A stretch of 64,000 bases of DNA. Source: Roseithermus sacchariphilus (GTDB lineage: Bacteria > Bacteroidota > Rhodothermia > Rhodothermales > MEBIC09517). Numbering within the stretch: position 1 is the first letter of the stretch; each line of letters starts with the position of its first letter. The notes under the pieces were generated by a model. It saw only the letters and a list, made by a program, of their open reading frames with translations, was not told the DNA's origin and ran no database searches. Shown here in pieces: positions 9,361 through 26,919 of the stretch. The stretch covers positions 4,698,449 through 4,762,448 of the forward strand of contig CP030158.1 in NCBI GenBank assembly GCA_003285105.1, given 5' to 3'. Position numbers and translations under genes: made by a program.

Positions 9361-9887
9361 GCCACGAGGAACACAAACTCCGCGCCCGCTTCCTGCCCGT
9401 CCGCTGCGCCATCCTGACGATCAGCGACACCCGCAACGAGACGACCGACCGCAGCGGCGGCATCATCCGCGCCCGGCTGCAGCGTGCCGGCCACGAGCTG
9501 GTCACCTACCGCATCGTCCCGGACGAGCCGCTCATCATCCGCGCCGCCATGAAAGAGCTCTCCGGCAAGGTCGAGGCCGTGCTCTCCAACGGCGGCACCG
9601 GCATCAGCAAGCGAGACAGCACCTACGAGGTGCTCTCGGAGCTGATCCAGAAACCCCTGCCCGGCTACGGCGAGCTGTTTCGGATGCTCTCCTACGAGGA
9701 GATCGGCGCCTCCGCGATGCTCTCCCGCGCCCTCGCCGGCGTCTACGACGACACGCTCTACTTCGCCATGCCCGGCTCCACCAACGCCGTCAAGCTGGCC
9801 ATGGACAAGCTCATCCTCCCCGAACTCAAACACCTCGTCTGGGAACTGATCCGCCAGGCCCGGATCGAGGAAGAAGACGCGGAGTGA
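9357..9887 (+). CDS. moaB: molybdenum cofactor biosynthesis protein B
   Basis: The 176-aa MogA/MoaB-fold protein adenylates molybdopterin or otherwise helps in molybdenum insertion. Motifs include A-I-L-T-I-S-D-T-R, T-D-R-S-G-G, the nucleotide-binding S-N-G-G-T-G-I-S-K-R-D-S-T-Y-E and A-M-P-G-S-T-N-A-V. Length and order match MoaB. The ATG overlaps the yidD stop. moaA lies 17 kb away on the other strand, so the cofactor genes are scattered. Confidence 0.93.
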   Translation: MSHEEHKLRARFLPVRCAILTISDTRNETTDRSGGIIRARLQRAGHELVTYRIVPDEPLIIRAAMKELSGKVEAVLSNGGTGISKRDSTYEVLSELIQKPLPGYGELFRMLSYEEIGASAMLSRALAGVYDDTLYFAMPGSTNAVKLAMDKLILPELKHLVWELIRQARIEEEDAE

Positions 9888-10058
9888 GCATCCGCGACGG
9901 GCACGCGGGAAGCGGGCTGACGGCGGCGGACGGGCGCTGCTTCCCGGACGGGTTCGCTCCCCGCCCTCTTCACCCGACCCTCACAGAGGCACCTTGCCGC
10001 CGGGGCCGGGTATAAGCGAGGCTCTGTTTCCCCCGCGACCCCAACCCGCCCGGCGTCC

Positions 10059-19366: not shown

Positions 19367-20419
19367 TCACTCCTCACCCGGAGGACCCTCACCCACGACG
19401 ACGAACTCCACGCGCCGGTTCAGGGCGCGCCCGGTTTCGGTGTCGTTGCTGGCGATGGGTCGCGCCTCGCCGTAGCCTCGTGCCGTGATGCGGCTCGGGT
19501 CGATACCGGGGAAGCGTTCCAGGAGATAATCCCGGACGGCGGCGGCCCGCGCTTCGGAGAGGCGCAGGTTGTACTCCGCCGGCCCCCGGCTATCGGCGTG
19601 CCCGCCCACCTCGATCCGCAGGTCCGGGTACTTCTCCAGCACCGCCCCGATGGCGTCCAGCGTCCGCTGCGACGGGGGCAGCAGCGTGGCCTGATCGGTC
19701 TCGAAGAGCACGTCCACCGTCCGGAACAGCCCCGTTTCCAGGATGGCCCGTTCGACTTCCCGGACGATGGGCGTGACGGCGGGCGGAGTCTGAGGCAGGG
19801 CCTCCGGCGTGCGGGGGAGGACCGGCGCGGGCAGGCGCTCCGTCGGCGGCGGCACGGCGGCGGCAGGCGCGGCCAGGGAATCGGCCGGCGGCGGGGTCGG
19901 CTCGGCCGTCGTCGCCGGCGGCACCGCCCCGGTCTGCCGCACGTAGACGCGTGCCGGGGCGGGCGCGGCCGGGTAGGTCACCTCCCGGAGGATCTGCCAG
20001 AAGAGATCGTCCACCTCATCCAGCAGCCGATCCTCGATGGCGTCAATGCGCCGCTCCAGCCGCTCGGCTTCCTCCTCGGTGAGGCCGCGCCGGTCGGTCG
20101 CCTCCGTCCCGGTCGTCGGCGGCGCCGTTGGCCGTTCCGTGGTTGCCGCACCGGCGGGCGCCGCCTGAGGCGCTGCCGCACCGGCCGTCTGGCGCAGACC
20201 CGCCTCGGTGCGGGGCGTTCCATGGCGGGAGCGGATGCGCACGCCGCCCGGACGCCCCATCCGCAGGTAGACGACCCCCTGCGCGGGCACGGGCACGACG
20301 ATCTGCCCCGGATCCGCCGCACCCGCCCGCAGGCTGTCGGCGGACTGGGCCTGCGCGGCCCGGCCGTCGCCGAGCCACGTCAGCGCCATCCATCCGGCTA
20401 TGAGCAGCCACCATCGCAT
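19367..20419 (-). CDS. OmpA-family peptidoglycan-associated outer membrane protein
   Basis: The 350-aa secreted protein has a signal peptide ending A-A-Q-A-Q and a Pro/Ala-rich linker region (about 70-230). The C-terminal OmpA domain (about 240-345) contains V-D-V-L-F-E-T-D-Q-A-T-L, G-G-H-A-D-S-R-G and N-R-R-V-E-F. The domain anchors the outer membrane to peptidoglycan. Near residues 40-56 the protein carries V-V-Y-L-R-M-G-R-P-G-G-V-R-I. This closely matches a segment in the protein encoded just upstream on the same strand, so the pair probably work together. The N-terminal half has no recognised barrel. Confidence 0.88.
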   Translation of the reverse strand: MRWWLLIAGWMALTWLGDGRAAQAQSADSLRAGAADPGQIVVPVPAQGVVYLRMGRPGGVRIRSRHGTPRTEAGLRQTAGAAAPQAAPAGAATTERPTAPPTTGTEATDRRGLTEEEAERLERRIDAIEDRLLDEVDDLFWQILREVTYPAAPAPARVYVRQTGAVPPATTAEPTPPPADSLAAPAAAVPPPTERLPAPVLPRTPEALPQTPPAVTPIVREVERAILETGLFRTVDVLFETDQATLLPPSQRTLDAIGAVLEKYPDLRIEVGGHADSRGPAEYNLRLSEARAAAVRDYLLERFPGIDPSRITARGYGEARPIASNDTETGRALNRRVEFVVVGEGPPGEE

Positions 20420-20480
20420 GGGCAAGAGGCGTCGTTGGAAGTCTTCGGCTACGAGGGTCCCGGCTCCGGGATGCCGGTGG

Positions 20481-22907
20481 TCAGAACCGGATCCGATAGC
20501 CCGCCAGGAAGCGGTGGATGTCGAACAGGTCGAGGGTGTTGTACTCGAGGTACGCATCGCCGGGGCCGAACGACACCGAGGCGCCCAGGATGACGTCGTA
20601 CGTGATATCCACCGTGGCGAGTTCGTTGTACGTCAGCAGCCCCAGCCCGAGGCCGGCATAGGGCACGACGGGAGCCAGCGCCTCCAGCTGCACCGGATAG
20701 ACGCCTCCCAGGCTCGGGTTGATGGCCGTCTCATTCTGCCCGAAGCCGAGCGTGAAGGCCAGCCGGAAGCGCGCCGGGCCGGTGAGCCGGGTGCTGTAGG
20801 TCCAGCGCGCGCCCAGCAGGAACTGGTCGGGGCCGCGCCCGAAGCCATAGCCCAGGAAGGGCCGCAGCCCCTCGTCGCGCAGGAAGGCCTCTCCGCCGGC
20901 AGCCTGGCCGGCCGGGCTTTCGACGCGGACGTCGACCGGGGGCGGAGCCTGCTGAGCCACCGCAGCGGCCTGCCGGGCCTGCGCCTCCCGCAACTCCAGG
21001 GCCTGCTGCCGGATGCGTTCCTGAAGGCGCTCCTCCATCTGATCCAGCCGCTCCCGGAGCTGCCGCTCCAGTTCCTCGGCGCTGACCGTGGCGGCGGGCT
21101 CGGCGGGGCGCTGCTGCTGCAGCTCGGCCCGCACTGTCTCCTGCACGATCTGCCGGATCTGCGCGGCCGTCAGCCCGGCCCCCGCCGCGGGCAGCGCCGT
21201 CGACGCGGCGGCCTGCGCGGTGTCGGCCCCGGCCGGCGACACCGGCCTGACCACCGGCCGGCCGCTCGTCTCCTCGAAGTAGGACTCGATGCTGACGCCG
21301 CCCGGCTGACCGAAGCGGATGTACAGCTCGCCTTCCTGCGGCACGGGCAGCGTCACCATCTGCGGCTGGCTCCCCCGTGCCGGGCGCACCACCGTCGGCG
21401 GCGGGGTGGCGGGCCGGACGGTGTCGGCGCGGGCGGGGGTGGCAGAAGGCGTCTGCGCGGCCGTCGCCGGCGTCGCGGTAGTGCGGGCCGGCTCGCCCCC
21501 CCGTTCGAGCAGCGCCTGCAGCGAATCCAGGCGGGCACGGGATGCCGCCAGCTCGGCCCGCAGCTCCCGCAGCTCCGCCGATTCGTCGGCTGCTCCCTCG
21601 GCCGCCTCGACGGCCTCGGCCGTCGGCGTTCCGGCCGGCAGGCCTGCCCGCGCAGAGCGGCCCCCCAGCGCGAACGTCAGCCCCGCCGAGTACAGGTAGC
21701 TGGCCTTGACGTCGCTCGGCTGCGAGATGTCTTCCGGGTCGTCGTCGCTCATCAGCAGCGCCCGGGCCATGACCCGGAAGCGCAACCGGTCGGACACCGG
21801 CAGGATGATGCCGGCCCCGCCCGTGGCGTACGGCGCATCGGACACCGCCAGGCTGTCGCGTCCGACGTAGGCATCGCCGGCGTCCAGGTACCCGCCGCCC
21901 AGCGTGATGAAGGGGTTGAGGCTCTGCGCCCCGTCACCGCCCAGGTTCAGGCGCAGCTCGCCCCCGTAGGCGCGGAGGTCCTCCGCCCCGGCCAGCGTAC
22001 CGCTGTCGAGGCTCTGCCAGTAGGTTCCCCGCACGCCGACGTACGAGCCAAAGTCCAGCCCCGCCTGCACACCCGCCACGCGATGGCTGCTCTGGTAGGG
22101 CAGCGAGGCGTCGAACTCGACCTGCCCGATGAAGGGCTCGACCGGGATCGTCAGCCCGCGCAGCCCCCGCTCAAACTGTTGCCGCAGCGCCTGGTCCACT
22201 TCCGTCATCGCACCGCGCTCGCGGCCGCCCAGGTAGAATTGCAGCGCGGCCCGGACGGCCCAGTTGCTCACCTGCACCTGATTGAAGTTCTGCGGGCCGA
22301 GGCCGAGGTCCTGCAGATCCTCGTCGCTGAAGAACATCGACCCTGCGTTGTAGCGATAGGTGAGGTTCTCCGCCGCCAGCGTCAGCGTGTACCGGCTGGC
22401 GAGGCTGAACTGCAGGCCGGCCCCCCCGGAGAGGTAGATGCGCTCGCTGCGCCCCCGGTTTTCCGGGTCGAAGCGCAGCAGCCCCGTGCCGAGCGTCACG
22501 AACGGCACGAACATCCCGACGGGCACGTTGAGCTTCAGGTCCCCGCCCAGGCGTGTCACATCTACCCGCCGTGCCGACAGCCCGGCCAGCAGCTCCTGAT
22601 ACACCGGATCCAGGCCCGAAAACGCCCCGAAGTTCGTCCCGAAGTCGCGACCGGTGAGATACAGGCCGTTCAGCTCGACGAACTCGCCGAAGCCGAAACC
22701 CAGCTGCCCGCCGTAGAGCAAGCCGGTTTCCAGCCCGGCGTTGTCGGTCCAGTAGACGCGCTCGGCCACGGGACCCAGCGTGTAGCTCAACCCCTGCACC
22801 TGCGCCCGGGCCGGTTGCAGCCCGGCGGCCGCAGGCCACCCTCCCGCTGCCAGCAGCAGCAGGAAGAGCAGGCGCACAGGGACACGATATCGCAACGAGG
22901 ATGGCAT
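20481..22907 (-). CDS. outer-membrane protein with two predicted beta-barrel regions and a coiled-coil linker
   Basis: The 808-aa protein starts with a signal peptide (ending A-R-A-Q). Residues about 35-410 are rich in alternating, aromatic-ended strands like a beta-barrel. A middle region follows with a short coiled coil (A-E-L-R-E-L-R-A-E-L), the motif E-L-Y-I-R-F-G-Q-P-G-G-V-S-I-E-S and a second, longer coiled coil (about 590-650, E- and Q-rich). The last 150 residues look like a second barrel-like sheet ending in F. I do not recognise the family. The shared P-G-G-V motif with the following OmpA gene, 61 bp away, suggests a common partner. A role in linking or shaping the envelope is inference only. 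Confidence 0.75.
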   Translation of the reverse strand: MPSSLRYRVPVRLLFLLLLAAGGWPAAAGLQPARAQVQGLSYTLGPVAERVYWTDNAGLETGLLYGGQLGFGFGEFVELNGLYLTGRDFGTNFGAFSGLDPVYQELLAGLSARRVDVTRLGGDLKLNVPVGMFVPFVTLGTGLLRFDPENRGRSERIYLSGGAGLQFSLASRYTLTLAAENLTYRYNAGSMFFSDEDLQDLGLGPQNFNQVQVSNWAVRAALQFYLGGRERGAMTEVDQALRQQFERGLRGLTIPVEPFIGQVEFDASLPYQSSHRVAGVQAGLDFGSYVGVRGTYWQSLDSGTLAGAEDLRAYGGELRLNLGGDGAQSLNPFITLGGGYLDAGDAYVGRDSLAVSDAPYATGGAGIILPVSDRLRFRVMARALLMSDDDPEDISQPSDVKASYLYSAGLTFALGGRSARAGLPAGTPTAEAVEAAEGAADESAELRELRAELAASRARLDSLQALLERGGEPARTTATPATAAQTPSATPARADTVRPATPPPTVVRPARGSQPQMVTLPVPQEGELYIRFGQPGGVSIESYFEETSGRPVVRPVSPAGADTAQAAASTALPAAGAGLTAAQIRQIVQETVRAELQQQRPAEPAATVSAEELERQLRERLDQMEERLQERIRQQALELREAQARQAAAVAQQAPPPVDVRVESPAGQAAGGEAFLRDEGLRPFLGYGFGRGPDQFLLGARWTYSTRLTGPARFRLAFTLGFGQNETAINPSLGGVYPVQLEALAPVVPYAGLGLGLLTYNELATVDITYDVILGASVSFGPGDAYLEYNTLDLFDIHRFLAGYRIRF

Positions 22908-23068
22908 GATGGTCTGACGGAAATCCGTTGGGATGGGAACGGGAACGGGCCGCACGACGGCACACCCGTGGCAGCATGCCGCCCACGCGAGCGGGGCGCA
23001 CGCCGGCCGAGCGGCCTGTGCGAAGGGGTCAGGGGCGAAGGGATCGGGCAGCGTACCGCCGCCCGGCG

Positions 23069-23605
23069 TTACCGCAGCGAGAGCCGGAGACGCAGCGTGC
23101 CGGGGACGGACGTCAGCCCTTCATAGCGGCCGGGCGAGAAGGCCTCCAGGTTGGCCGTCTTCGAGATGTCGGCCTCCAGCAGGCGGCGGTCGTTGGCGAC
23201 GCGGTTGAGCCGCACCTCGCGGTCGAGCAGCAGCGACTGCATCTTGGCCTGGTCGTCGGCATCGGCCGTCAGGTCGATCCGGTCCGAGCGCACGCGGAAG
23301 CTACCGGAGGCCAGCGACTGCACACCGCCCCGGAACTGGTATTCGAGCGCGAACGAGCCGTCTTCGAACAGCCTGAGCTGCGTCGTAGTCGCAACGAGCG
23401 TGTCGAGCACGTTGACGTCCGGGATGGCCGAGGCATTCGGATCGAAGGTGAACTCCGTGAACCGGTAGGTGCCGGCCACCTCGCGCGGGTCCGGCCCGTC
23501 GACCGGGTCGCCACTGTCACACGCGGCCAGGCCGGCCGCGAACACCAGCAGCACGACGCCGCCGAGGAGGCGGTGTACCGAACGAAGGAGGGGAAAGGAT
23601 CGCAT
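23069..23605 (-). CDS. putative lipoprotein, lipocalin-like
   Basis: The 178-aa protein has a lipoprotein signal with lipobox L-A-A-C at about residue 29. It then reads as a small beta-rich domain of the kind annotated lipocalin-like: V-A-G-T-Y-R-F-T-E-F-T-F, L-R-L-F-E-D-G-S-F-A-L-E-Y, G-S-F-R-V-R-S-D-R-I-D-L-T. Ligand and role are unknown. It stands alone between the double-barrel protein and the Gls24 gene. No function should be assumed from position. Confidence 0.7.
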   Translation of the reverse strand: MRSFPLLRSVHRLLGGVVLLVFAAGLAACDSGDPVDGPDPREVAGTYRFTEFTFDPNASAIPDVNVLDTLVATTTQLRLFEDGSFALEYQFRGGVQSLASGSFRVRSDRIDLTADADDQAKMQSLLLDREVRLNRVANDRRLLEADISKTANLEAFSPGRYEGLTSVPGTLRLRLSLR

Positions 23606-23773
23606 ATCGTCGATGAATCAGGTCGTCTTATCAGGAACACCGGTGAAACGTGACGGCCCGGCAGGACGGTTTCCCGTCAGAGGCCGTCCATCGCGGCGGT
23701 ACAGGATTCTCACAACCGGGTCGCACCGGCGAGCCCGCACCGGCGAGCCGGCCCGGGAGTACCGCGCCCGGGA

Positions 23774-24241
23774 TCAATGCACGCGCGGCGTTTCGGGCTC
23801 GGCCTCCGCCTCATCCTCCCCGAAGTACAGGTCGATGACGTCGACGTTGACCTCGACGACCTTCAGGCCCGTCATGGACTCGATGCGGTCGGCCACGTTG
23901 GCGCGAATCGCCGCGGCAATCTTCGGGATGGACATGCCGTAGTGGGTGATGACCCGCACGTCGACAGCCGCCTCCTTCTCGCCCACCTCCACGTGCACGC
24001 CGAGGTCGCGCATGTCCGTGCCGGTGACGGTCTTGGCCAGCGAGGCCACCTGCTGACCCGTCCCGAAGGGCACCAGGCGATAGACGCCGTCCACCTCCCG
24101 GACGGCCAGGCCGGCGATCTTGGCGACGACGTCATTGCGGATCACCGTCTTGCCGAGTTCTTCCTGGGTCACCATCGCCTCGCTGGACGACGCGTCGGCT
24201 TTCCGGGTCCGGGGGGTCGCGGTTTTATTTTGCTCTGCCAT
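23774..24241 (-). CDS. Asp23/Gls24 family envelope stress protein
   Basis: The 155-aa canonical Asp23/Gls24 protein has V-I-R-N-D-V-V-A-K-I-A-G-L-A-V-R-E-V-D-G-V at about 33-53. Further on come H-V-E-V-G-E-K-E-A-A-V-D-V-R-V and the closing M-T-G-L-K-V-V-E-V-N-V-D-V-I-D-L-Y-F. In Gram-positive bacteria such proteins are tethered under the membrane by AmaP and respond to envelope stress. It is the last gene of the leftward set that includes amaP, but a 192-bp gap with an 18-bp-arm inverted repeat and a TTAAAG motif precedes it, so it likely also has its own promoter. Confidence 0.93.
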   Translation of the reverse strand: MAEQNKTATPRTRKADASSSEAMVTQEELGKTVIRNDVVAKIAGLAVREVDGVYRLVPFGTGQQVASLAKTVTGTDMRDLGVHVEVGEKEAAVDVRVITHYGMSIPKIAAAIRANVADRIESMTGLKVVEVNVDVIDLYFGEDEAEAEPETPRVH

Positions 24242-24285
24242 GGGACACCTCTCTAAACATGAATACCGTGGGTTGCGGGTGGACG

Positions 24286-24328
24286 ACCGCCCTGAGTCCC
24301 GGCGCTCAGAGCCGGGACTCAGGGCGGT
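24286..24328. repeat. perfect inverted repeat, 18-bp arms, 7-nt loop
   Basis: The arms are ACCGCCCTGAGTCCCGGC (24286-24303) and its exact reverse complement (24311-24328). It sits between the DUF2273-like gene and the Gls24 gene. There is no T-run on either side, so it is not a classical intrinsic terminator. A mobile REP-like hairpin, an mRNA-stability element or an attenuator are all possible. Confidence 0.8.
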
Positions 24329-24363
24329 ACGCTCGTCAAATTGCCGGATGGCGTCGACCGGCA

Positions 24364-24395
24364 CCTTAAAGCCGCATTAATCCTGGATTAAAATC
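24364..24395 (-). promoter_or_regulatory. AT-rich putative promoter/operator upstream of gls24
   Basis: This AT-rich island in GC-rich DNA contains CCTTAAAGCCGCATTAAT (24364-24381), followed by the near-palindrome TTAATCC-T-GGATTAA. The first element closely matches CCTTAAAGCTCCATTAAA at 25934-25951 upstream of the other Gls24-like gene, in the same orientation relative to the genes. A shared sigma-factor or regulator site is inferred. Confidence 0.45.
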
Positions 24396-24433
24396 CGGCG
24401 GGACCGCAGCGAGGGCGAAGGCCTGCACCCGGA

Positions 24434-24754
24434 TCACGGTCTGCGCCAGAGCGCCTGCCAGGCATCGCGGACGTGGAGGCGTCCGTTCATCGCGGCGTGG
24501 ATCAGCCAGGCCAGGCCGGCGCCCAGCCCTCCGCATACGAGCAGGAACAGCGCCTCCCCCAGCCAGCCCAGCAGCACACAGAGCCCCACCCCGACGCCCA
24601 CGAGGAAGCCGGCCAGCGCCACGAGCGTGGCATCACGCACCGGCAGGCGGTCCAGCGGCGGTAGCCACGAGGCGTCCGGGCGCGGCGTCTCCGGAATGCC
24701 TGGAGACGCCGGGCGGTCGTGTACGTCCTGACGGAACGGATCCCTGGGGCCCAT
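24434..24754 (-). CDS. small two-helix membrane protein of the Gls24 operon (DUF2273-like)
   Basis: The 106-aa protein has a polar N-terminal third and two closely spaced hydrophobic helices (about 42-62 and 64-88, V-A-L-A-G-F-L-V-G-V-G-V-G-L and L-F-L-L-V-C-G-G-L-G-A-G-L-A-W), with a basic C-terminus. In Gram-positive operons a small two-helix DUF2273 protein lies beside amaP and asp23, and position and topology match here. Sequence similarity alone would not prove it. It starts 28 bp after amaP. Confidence 0.65.
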   Translation of the reverse strand: MGPRDPFRQDVHDRPASPGIPETPRPDASWLPPLDRLPVRDATLVALAGFLVGVGVGLCVLLGWLGEALFLLVCGGLGAGLAWLIHAAMNGRLHVRDAWQALWRRP

Positions 24755-24782
24755 GATGCGCTCTGGCTGAGTGACGGACGGA

Positions 24783-25391
24783 TCAACGAAGACGCCGGCG
24801 GGCGTCGAGGGCGGTCAACTGCGAGGCCACATCCACCCGGGCCACGGGCAGCCCCGTGTGCCGCTCCAGCGTCTGCTGCAGCGCCTCACGCAGGCGTGCG
24901 GTCACCTCGGGCAGCGGGCTGTCCGGGTGCACGGCGACCCGGCAGCGGACGTGCCAGCCGTCGCGCCGCAACTGTACCTGCGGGTCGGCTTCCCGGACGC
25001 CCGGCACCCGCTCGGCGACGTAGGCCACCAGCGCCTGGAGGCTGCGCAGGGCCACGGTGACGCGGCCACCGCCGTACGCCACCGCGTCGCCCCTCCCGCT
25101 GAGCACCACCTCCCGCCCGGCCTCGCCGGACCGGCGCAGCGCCGGGATGAAGAACAACAGCCCCCCCACCACCGCCAGCAGAGCGATGCCGACGAACGAC
25201 CAGACGGCGCGCACGGGCAAGGCCCGCAGATCCACCAGCAGATCCAGCCCCGGCCGGGTGAGCCGCACCGGACCGGCCCAGCCGGCCACGTGCAGCAGCA
25301 GCCAGCCACCGGCCGCCACGAGCCCCAGCCCGACCAGCAGCGACGTCAGCCGCCGGATGAACTCGAACAGGAAAGACGTCGAAGCGTGCAT
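24783..25391 (-). CDS. amaP: alkaline shock response membrane anchor protein AmaP
   Basis: The 202-aa protein has the AmaP layout: two membrane helices (about 15-35 and 63-82) separated by a short loop, then a cytoplasmic Asp23-like domain. The latter includes L-Q-A-L-V-A-Y-V-A-E-R-V-P-G-V and ends with L-Q-Q-T-L-E-R-H-T-G-L-P-V-A-R-V-D-V. In Staphylococcus, AmaP tethers Asp23 to the membrane. Here it starts 12 bp after the glycine-zipper Gls24-like gene, so the two are co-transcribed. AmaP in a Gram-negative-type genome is less usual. Confidence 0.85.
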   Translation of the reverse strand: MHASTSFLFEFIRRLTSLLVGLGLVAAGGWLLLHVAGWAGPVRLTRPGLDLLVDLRALPVRAVWSFVGIALLAVVGGLLFFIPALRRSGEAGREVVLSGRGDAVAYGGGRVTVALRSLQALVAYVAERVPGVREADPQVQLRRDGWHVRCRVAVHPDSPLPEVTARLREALQQTLERHTGLPVARVDVASQLTALDARRRLR

Positions 25392-25403
25392 GGGGACCAG
25401 CGG

Positions 25404-25853
25404 TCAGGCCGCCGAAGGGGAAGGGGAAGAACGGACGGGAACGACATCGGTAAACTCCACGTCGATCCGGGCGGCGTGCAGGCCCGTATGCTCCGCCACG
25501 GCCTGCTGCACGGCGTCCCGGACGGCGTCCGCCAGGGCGTGCAGGTCGGCACCCAGGCGGGCCGAGAGGCGCAGGCGGATGGGCACGGGCGTCGTCGCCT
25601 CGTAGAGGTGCTGCTGCTGCTGGTATCCTTCCAGCCATTGCGCCGCCGCGGCCCCCGCCGTGCTGCCCACGGCCGCCCCCACGGCCGCCCCGGCCGGGCC
25701 ACCCTGCACGAACCCCACCGTCCCCCCGAGCGTCCCGCCCAGCACGGCCCCGGCGATGAGCCCCTGCACGTCGACGACGTCGCGGACTTCGTACACCGTG
25801 GCCGTCACCACCTTGTTCAGTACCGCATCCGAGATGCGCAGGCGTCCTCTCAT
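25404..25853 (-). CDS. Gls24-like protein with internal glycine-zipper segment
   Basis: The 149-aa protein begins and ends like an Asp23/Gls24 domain. The start I-S-D-A-V-L-N-K-V-V-T-A-T-V-Y-E-V-R-D-V corresponds to the first helix and strand. The end D-A-V-Q-Q-A-V-A-E-H-T-G-L-H-A-A-R-I-D-V-E-F corresponds to the last. Between them, residues about 32-72 are a glycine-zipper-like stretch of repeated G-x-x-x-G (A-G-A-V-L-G-G-T-L-G-G-T-V-G, G-A-A-V-G-A-A-V-G). Such segments insert in membranes or pack as helical hairpins. It could therefore be a self-anchoring Gls24 protein. It is the first gene of the operon, 142 bp from the divergent regulator gene. Confidence 0.75.
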   Translation of the reverse strand: MRGRLRISDAVLNKVVTATVYEVRDVVDVQGLIAGAVLGGTLGGTVGFVQGGPAGAAVGAAVGSTAGAAAAQWLEGYQQQQHLYEATTPVPIRLRLSARLGADLHALADAVRDAVQQAVAEHTGLHAARIDVEFTDVVPVRSSPSPSAA

Positions 25854-25921
25854 GGGTTCGCGTTCCGGCTGGTCCGGGGGCCGTCGTTTCCTCCCGAAGA
25901 TGGATCCCGCCGGTGCGTGCT

Positions 25922-25951
25922 GCTTTAAACGGGCCTTAAAGCTCCATTAAA
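25922..25951. promoter_or_regulatory. palindromic operator/promoter candidate between gls24-like gene and regulator
   Basis: GCTTTAA (25922-25928) and TTAAAGC (25936-25942) form a perfect 7-bp inverted repeat with a 7-bp spacer, followed by CATTAAA. The right half, CCTTAAAGCTCCATTAAA, recurs with few changes at 24364-24381. It lies in the 142-bp divergent spacer between the Gls24/AmaP operon and an atypical response regulator, a natural place for that regulator's own site. This is motif-based only. Confidence 0.45.
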
Positions 25952-25995
25952 TTCAGCGACGCCTGTTCCCTTCGGGCCGCGCCCCCCTCCACCGC

Positions 25996-26919
25996 ATGCA
26001 GCCGACTCCCTTCACGATCTGCCTGGTCACGGACAGCCGCACCGTCCGCGACGCCGTCGTGCTGAGTTGCCCGCCCCCTCACCGGGTCCAGACGATGGGC
26101 CTGCAGGGCATCCTCGAACCCGACCACAGCCTCTCGGAGCAGGGCGAGGCCCTCCTGGAAGCCGCGGCAGACGCCGACGTCGTCCTCGTGTCCTGGTCGC
26201 TGGAACACGCCCCGCTGATCGGGACGTTGTGCCACCTCGTCCGGCAGGCCACGCGCCGCCCCATCCTGGCGCTCTGCGGCGGCTCTCAGGATGAGGTCAT
26301 CGCCGCGCTGACCACCGGGGTCGACGAGGTCGTGCACTTCCCCCTCTACCTGCCCGTGCTGCAGGCCCGCGTCGCCGCCCTCGAACGCCACGACGACGTC
26401 CTTCACCTGGAGGCCGCCCGCACCCTGAAGGCCTCGCTCCGGCATACCCTCGGCGCCGAGCCGGAAAACACGGACGGACACGCTCCGCCAGACGCCCGGC
26501 CGGCGGCCTCATCCGAATCCTCGCCCGATCCCGCCGATGCCCTCCAGCAGCTTGCCGCCGCCGTCCAGGATTCCATCGACGAGGTGCTGATGCCGGCGGA
26601 CCGAACCGAGGACGTCCTGACCGTGGGCCCGCTGCGGCTGGAGCGGCACACGTTCCGGTTCTTCATCCACGACGACGAGGTGGAGCTCACCCCCAAGGAG
26701 TTCGACGTGTTGCAGGACCTCATGCGCCACCGCGGCGAGGTGCGCACGCGCGACGAGATCCTGGAGGCGGCCTGGGGCATCGACTTCGACACGGGCACCA
26801 ACACCGTGGACGTCTACATGCACTTCCTCCGCAAGAAGCTCAAGGCCCACGGGGTGGGCGGCATGCTCGAAACCGTGCGCGGACGCGGGTTCCGGCTGGT
26901 GGAGCCGGATGCCGGGTAA
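25996..26919 (+). CDS. OmpR-type response regulator with degenerate receiver domain
   Basis: The 307-aa protein has an N-terminal receiver-like fold (about 5-130), a long polar linker and a C-terminal winged helix (about 210-305). The winged helix includes the OmpR hallmarks E-L-T-P-K-E-F-D-V-L, R-T-R-D-E-I-L-E-A-A-W-G, V-D-V-Y-M-H-F-L-R-K-K-L and V-R-G-R-G-F-R-L-V. In the receiver, the phospho-acceptor position after D-V-V-L-V is Ser instead of Asp, the acidic pair is reduced, and the switch Lys is replaced (V-V-H-F-P). It is probably phosphorylation-independent. It is divergent from the Gls24/AmaP operon and may control it. No cognate kinase is adjacent. Confidence 0.85.
   Translation: MQPTPFTICLVTDSRTVRDAVVLSCPPPHRVQTMGLQGILEPDHSLSEQGEALLEAAADADVVLVSWSLEHAPLIGTLCHLVRQATRRPILALCGGSQDEVIAALTTGVDEVVHFPLYLPVLQARVAALERHDDVLHLEAARTLKASLRHTLGAEPENTDGHAPPDARPAASSESSPDPADALQQLAAAVQDSIDEVLMPADRTEDVLTVGPLRLERHTFRFFIHDDEVELTPKEFDVLQDLMRHRGEVRTRDEILEAAWGIDFDTGTNTVDVYMHFLRKKLKAHGVGGMLETVRGRGFRLVEPDAG

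Follow-up and report, generated by a model that had tools for sequence, protein, structure and literature searches.

A group of genes in Roseithermus sacchariphilus raises the question of how a module commonly regarded as Gram-positive works for a bacterium that also has an outer membrane. The genes lie in a 64,000-nucleotide stretch of contig CP030158.1 (positions 4,698,449 to 4,762,448; hereafter the window) and include those for an Asp23/Gls24 protein and for AmaP, its predicted membrane anchor. In Staphylococcus aureus AmaP attaches Asp23 to the membrane, Asp23 assembles into filaments, and cells that lose it switch on cell-wall stress genes (PMC6954212). A module built into a diderm genome, when almost all relatives in the lineage lack it, offers a testable case and a compact natural experiment, with its own regulator, an Asp23 predicted to be integral to the membrane and, linked with these, an outer-membrane unit. 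As detailed below, we consider it probable on balance that the genes form a self-regulated diderm envelope-stress island, in which the Asp23 module is joined to a pre-existing outer-membrane unit under one dedicated regulator.

The first-pass annotation of the window had described four leftward genes, encoding a Gls24-like protein, AmaP, a two-helix membrane protein and a canonical Gls24 protein. All four were found, in an order kept in three other genomes. Coordinates are window positions throughout, and cut-offs are curated family thresholds.

25404..25853, minus strand: gene 1, glycine-zipper Asp23 (GZ-Asp23), predicted Asp23 domain split by a glycine-zipper helical hairpin
24783..25391, minus strand: gene 2, AmaP-like predicted membrane anchor with two N-terminal helices and a predicted cytoplasmic Asp23-like C-terminal domain
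24434..24754, minus strand: gene 3, DUF2273-like two-helix membrane protein, by orthologue match and position
23774..24241, minus strand: gene 4, canonical Asp23/Gls24 protein (PF03780)

Gene 4 matched the Pfam family Asp23 (PF03780) over positions 2-106 of 108 with 90.8 bits (E 9.7e-26; cut-off 28). Its open reading frame is open from 24364, and ATG 24241, preceded by the ribosome-site-like AGAGAGGTG, is the likely start. Gene 2 scored 59.2 bits against AmaP (NF033218), passing the curated equivalog cut-off of 55, while its orthologues fell slightly below (54.8 and 49.9 bits). It has strong hydrophobic segments at 18-36 and 67-85 and a C-terminal tail that matches Asp23 weakly, and in tblastn searches it matched AmaP genes adjoining Asp23 in Bacillota, down to 5e-11. 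Gene 3 encodes two strong predicted hydrophobic helices and has an N-terminal MGPxDPF conserved in three of the four genomes. The window copy has no Pfam match of its own (DUF2273, PF10031, cut-off 25.4). Its orthologue in the relative G020 (locus L010) matches DUF2273 alone, with 21.5 bits (E 2.5e-4), and the gene 3 profile aligns with the staphylococcal DUF2273 profile at E 2.9e-4 and a probability of 41%. Because these scores are sub-threshold the protein is called DUF2273-like, not DUF2273. The window, three relatives and two staphylococcal records all have amaP, then the two-helix gene, then asp23 on a single strand, which bears out the likeness to the Staphylococcus module that had been noted.

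Gene 1 proved to be Gls24-like as annotated, in a modified form. It scored 35.3 bits against Asp23 (cut-off 28) in two stretches flanking a glycine zipper, and its counterparts in two relatives scored 44.9 and 46.7 bits. The middle of the protein matched Gly-zipper_Omp with 22.2 bits in the window and with 30.5 and 29.7 bits in two relatives (cut-off 25), so that a single gene clears the cut-offs of both families in two relatives. The protein's first 30 residues correspond to the beginning of Asp23; helices at 31-49 and 53-71 come next, after which the alignment resumes with the C-terminal half of Asp23. A profile built from three orthologues aligned with Asp23 across both halves (97.3%, E 2.6e-11). 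In shuffle tests of the N-terminal half, none of 500 shuffles did as well against each of four Asp23 sequences for the L010 copy, a clear support; for the window copy, 0 to 53 of 500 did, a weaker one. No signal peptide or lipobox was seen. We infer from this layout an Asp23 domain in which a membrane hairpin replaces the middle loop. A search of plasmids with GZ-Asp23 gave no match. Five matches in viral contigs were confined to the glycine-zipper stretch and were set aside as composition-driven. Searches of solved structures returned no Asp23 relative and no barrel relative; with the mixed profile, a designed helix bundle came out on top.

The limits first given for the unit, 23774-25853, turned out to be too narrow, for they miss a regulator and an outer-membrane unit. 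The conserved island spans 19367-26919 and includes the following additional genes.

25996..26919, plus strand: OmpR/PhoB-type regulator, divergent, with an intact winged helix and a degenerate receiver
23069..23605, minus strand: small lipoprotein with LAAC lipobox; in the genomes of the order examined, most barrel genes have a homologue of it as neighbour, whether Asp23 is present or not
20481..22907, minus strand: multi-barrel outer-membrane protein of 808 residues (OMP_b-brl match)
19367..20419, minus strand: OmpA-domain protein, predicted peptidoglycan binder (PF00691, 80.8 bits)

Of 40 near relatives, 3 carry Asp23, with the window's own genome included; across the order the figure is 4 of 114 genomes, across the class 4 of 245, and an evenly drawn sample of the phylum gave 2 of 394. 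The four bearers (the window genome, G010, G020 and G451) represent four families. The regulator, GZ-Asp23, AmaP, the two-helix protein, Asp23 and the outer-membrane unit recur as neighbours in all four, with the Asp23 module adjoining the outer-membrane unit each time; the G451 island is split over two contigs that both end within AmaP, and its contig ends before the OmpA-domain gene. The position of the module relative to the barrel gene is constant, whereas that of the regulator varies: in the window its gene precedes the module and is divergent from it, in G010 and G451 it separates asp23 from the lipoprotein gene, and in G020 it comes first. In G020 asp23 is a tandem duplicate with two copies (L010 10138-11367). 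Between bearers, identity is mostly only 35-50% for the island proteins and about 60-70% for Asp23, and a recent horizontal transfer of the island was therefore set aside.

Members of the barrel family are present in 36 of the order's 114 genomes, 32 of which lack Asp23. At the 18 Asp23-free barrel loci that were read, a lipoprotein or OmpA gene flanks the barrel gene in most; Asp23, AmaP and the regulator never do, and no boxes of the kind described below were seen. One of these loci, in G005, is a short contig beyond which further genes are possible. Genes upstream of the unit at the Asp23-free loci inspected are unrelated. From these locus readings, the barrel unit exists without Asp23, and within the class Asp23 was not seen without the unit.

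The multi-barrel protein has two barrels in tandem and a coiled-coil-like linker; its C-terminal segment, which ends in YRIRF, is barrel-like but distinct. Barrels 1 and 2 are mutually homologous (hhalign 98.9%, E 2.4e-17, 22-sequence alignment), and the G010 orthologue matched OMP_b-brl with 63.7 bits. The OmpA-domain protein retains the NxxLSxxRA region of peptidoglycan binders. It has a stretch around YLRMGxPGGVRI (PVPxxGxxYxRxGxPGGVxIxS) in common with the barrel protein, and the profile of the latter matches it at 3e-4 in the window and 2.7e-6 in G020. The presence of an outer membrane, as had been stated, agrees with seven Omp85/BamA-family matches in the genome, the best at 113.8 bits, and on these the host is taken to be a diderm. 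LptD (PF04453) was not found in the genome, with a model that likewise misses the control Bacteroides.

The regulator matched Trans_reg_C with 81.2 bits in the window and with 95.5 and 90.7 bits in orthologues, and gave no Response_reg match. Its 306-position profile aligns with PrrA (1ys6) over both domains, and the DNA-binding domain is PhoB/PrrA-like. The position of the phosphoacceptor Asp is occupied by Ser, His or Ala in three orthologues, and in the PrrA alignment the switch Thr/Ser is replaced by Cys and the conserved Lys by Phe or Leu. The receiver thus lacks the residues by which OmpR/PhoB receivers are controlled through phosphorylation, and no histidine kinase gene adjoins the regulator gene, which lies within the island in all four bearers. 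With PhoB/OmpR response regulators the protein has in common the C-terminal winged helix (81-95 bits) and, as presumed operator, 11-bp phased repeats; it differs from them in the lack of phosphoacceptor Asp, Thr/Ser and Lys and of an adjacent kinase gene.

Candidate operators and a promoter element for this regulator lie upstream of two of the module genes.

25925..25951, minus strand: operator 1, TTTAA-N6-TTTAA-N6-TTTAA, upstream of gene 1, no mismatch
24366..24392, minus strand: operator 2, TTTAA-N6-ATTAA-N6-TTTAA, upstream of asp23, one mismatch
25895..25902, minus strand: predicted -7 element CATCTTCG, TAnnTTTG-like, 22 nt past operator 1

Both sites of the triple TTTAA at 11-bp spacing are intergenic. 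The pattern is expected 0.01 times per window (at most two mismatches). With at most one mismatch, the 4.8-Mb genome holds two sites, both in the island, and the reversed-pattern control gave none. Repeats also precede asp23, GZ-Asp23 and the lipoprotein gene in G010, the second asp23 copy (asp23b) and the regulator gene in G020, and GZ-Asp23 and the lipoprotein gene in G451; they are partly weaker than the window sites, as in G451. A box at the position of operator 2 is present in G010 and G020 as well. The G020 operator comprises four TCTAA repeats at 11 bp, before the second asp23 copy only. Two of three genome-wide sites fall in the island in G010, as do two of three in G020 (one overlapping cluster). 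Two Asp23-free genomes have none, and Asp23-free G002 has one site against two for the reversed control. Across 14 Asp23-free genomes, repeats ahead of the outer-membrane unit scored 11 of 15 at best, compared with 11-15 for bearer sites, most of them at least 13. Among the loci read, the repeats are restricted to those with the regulator gene. The sole off-island site in G010 (L113 1501-1527; G010:C1:3085397-3085423) lies about 60 bp ahead of a gene for a universal-stress-protein-like product, which may be one more member of the regulon.

Promoter geometry was examined with the Bacteroides -7 consensus, TAnnTTTG (PMC7366714). Over nine aligned sites the TAnnTTTG-like score peaked at 31 of 54, 22 nt after the third repeat, and none of 5000 circular-shift controls reached 31 (maximum 27). 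At the presumed promoters, the repeats thus reach into the -33 region and sit where an activator of the PhoB class would touch; PhoB itself binds 11-bp direct repeats (PMC2648988). A sigma-70 scan of the island gave no match, as expected for a Bacteroidota-type promoter, and an Rfam search of the island gave none. The linked regulator may act as an activator at the TTTAA repeats, and the island is probably co-regulated.

These features, namely the family identities, the linkage, the operators and the promoter geometry, are read from the sequence. For the rest of the proposed mechanism we infer the regulator–operator pairing, topology, polymerisation and envelope function. The regulator, with a receiver lacking a phosphorylation site, would respond by means other than classical phosphorylation, bind the triple repeats overlapping the -33 region and activate the island promoters. 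AmaP, the DUF2273-like protein and GZ-Asp23 would insert into the inner membrane, and Asp23 would polymerise against these anchors on its cytoplasmic face. The lipoprotein, barrel and OmpA proteins would be co-produced at the outer membrane and wall. By homology, an Asp23 lattice is expected under the inner membrane with the integral GZ-Asp23 as an additional anchor, and the role in inner-membrane organisation or stress that had been suggested is plausible. No direct protein bridge between the membranes is claimed, because the periplasmic loop of AmaP has only about 30 residues and seems too short. The island thus predicts a specific operator, regulon and anchor. A more far-reaching version, which we put forward tentatively and hold to be less likely, is a distinct cross-envelope stress system. 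In it GZ-Asp23 would root the lattice and the phosphorylation-independent regulator would couple it to the outer-membrane multi-barrel/OmpA unit, so that both reinforcements rise and fall together.

Several results weigh against a self-regulated envelope island. The module is rare (4 of 245 genomes) and therefore not essential to the barrel unit, and the island of G020 is without the lipoprotein gene. In the window there is no box between asp23 and the lipoprotein gene, and the outer-membrane unit could be co-expressed here only by read-through of the 168-bp gap or from another promoter. The assignment of gene 3 to DUF2273 is weak, and it only marginally escapes falling outside that family in the profile searches, whereas gene 1 is placed inside Asp23. 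A single-sequence structure prediction of GZ-Asp23 was of low confidence (predicted local distance difference test, pLDDT, 46.8) and unusable.

Among other explanations, the strongest is that the Asp23 module arrived by horizontal transfer as a passenger, came to lie near the barrel unit by chance and keeps its Gram-positive job with no tie to the outer membrane. The patchy distribution, the existence of most barrel units without the module and the nature of the closest outside relatives, modules of the actinobacterial and staphylococcal kind (among them a Tsukamurella plasmid module, 50% identity), speak for it. Yet the linkage is kept in four families at protein identities far beyond a recent common transfer, and the lipoprotein-barrel promoter carries the same type of operator in G010 and G451, so we regard chance proximity as unlikely. 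Somewhat less likely still is a reading of the TTTAA repeats in which the neighbouring regulator has no part and the polymerase itself recognises them as AT-rich promoter elements, or some other factor binds there. The overlap of the repeats with the -33 region speaks for it; against it stand the confinement of both genomic sites to the island with an empty reversed-pattern control, the restriction of the repeats to loci with the regulator gene and an 11-bp phase that matches PhoB-type binding.

Two further alternatives concern the proteins themselves. YqhY is an Asp23 protein tied to accBC and thus to acetyl-CoA carboxylase and fatty-acid synthesis in Bacillus (PMC5437119), and the island proteins might likewise act on fatty-acid supply instead of forming a membrane lattice. 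We give this little credence: the genome has no Asp23 gene outside the island and hence none by accBC, island Asp23 is encoded together with membrane anchors, and the tree described below groups it with the amaP-linked type. Even less probable is that GZ-Asp23 has no relation to Asp23, its C-terminal match being due to chance, and is a glycine-zipper protein of the surface or outer membrane. Its middle does match glycine-zipper families of outer-membrane lipoproteins, but signal peptide and lipobox were not seen and the Asp23 similarity flanks the hairpin on both sides, above the Pfam cut-off in three genomes and with a profile E-value of 2.6e-11. The N-terminal half alone counters it less firmly, being weak in the window copy.

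In an Asp23 tree the five sequences of the order formed one clade (100/99). The clade lies in the half holding actinobacterial and staphylococcal amaP-linked Asp23 (99/97), apart from most other Bacillota; Bacillus YloU and YqhY were not among the sequences in the tree, and most Bacillota Asp23 are in the other half. Its long branch joins the actinobacterial and staphylococcal types without supported order. On the barrel-protein tree the Asp23 label has to change at least twice, which is compatible with one gain and losses or with a few island transfers. One old acquisition in the order, followed by losses or a few island transfers, would fit these data. That the module lies outside the Gram-positives, as first remarked, is true and not unprecedented: Asp23 was reported in 2017 in Deinococcus/Thermus, Chlamydia, Thermotoga and Bacteroides/Fusobacterium (PMC5437119), and our control genomes of Thermus, Deinobacterium and Thermotoga gave Asp23 matches. 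A 2020 paper still describes the family as exclusively Gram-positive. The literature searched held no account of a glycine-zipper Asp23, of the island or of its operator. The island architecture, the outer-membrane linkage and the operator thus appear new; Asp23 in diderms does not.

The amaP-DUF2273-asp23 operon of Staphylococcus is regulated by SigB. It has in common with the island the three families in identical order, a two-helix AmaP with an Asp23-like tail and a canonical Asp23 in last place, to which the island adds GZ-Asp23 in front, a diderm host, the outer-membrane unit and its own OmpR/PhoB-type regulator. The actinobacterial clusters of Tsukamurella and Streptomyces (Asp23, two-helix, Asp23-DUF6286 and AmaP genes with an extracytoplasmic-function, ECF, sigma factor) resemble it in several Asp23-type paralogues, a two-helix protein and AmaP, and hold the closest Asp23 by sequence, up to 50% identity. 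The Tsukamurella plasmid cluster with that Asp23 carries ECF sigma, two-helix and AmaP-like genes. Unlike the island, the actinobacterial clusters have a reversed gene order, a sigma factor instead of a response-regulator-like protein, no glycine-zipper Asp23 annotated or found, and a host without such an outer membrane. Bacillus YloU and YqhY belong to the same domain family but lie in operons of their own without an AmaP or DUF2273 partner, that of YqhY being linked to accBC.

Some minor features of the island were also observed. In G451 an extra small gene (L044 3054-3387) lies between GZ-Asp23 and AmaP; by eye its product resembles a 107-residue Asp23-tail-like protein of the Tsukamurella cluster (L062 4408-4731). 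General barrel models alone match the multi-barrel family, and no solved structure does. The stretch common to the barrel and OmpA-domain proteins is perhaps an interaction segment. Finally, a stem-loop was detected in the predicted asp23 5' leader.

24286..24328, minus strand: 18-bp stem-loop, predicted asp23 5' leader, no T run, fold z-score -3.7

None of 200 shuffles folded as well. A stem of unrelated sequence is found at the same place in G010 (L009, about 9862-9892) and G020 (L010 10800-10870) and is absent from G451; it is strong in the window and L010, and of ordinary overall energy in L009. The stem-loop may protect or pause the asp23 messenger.

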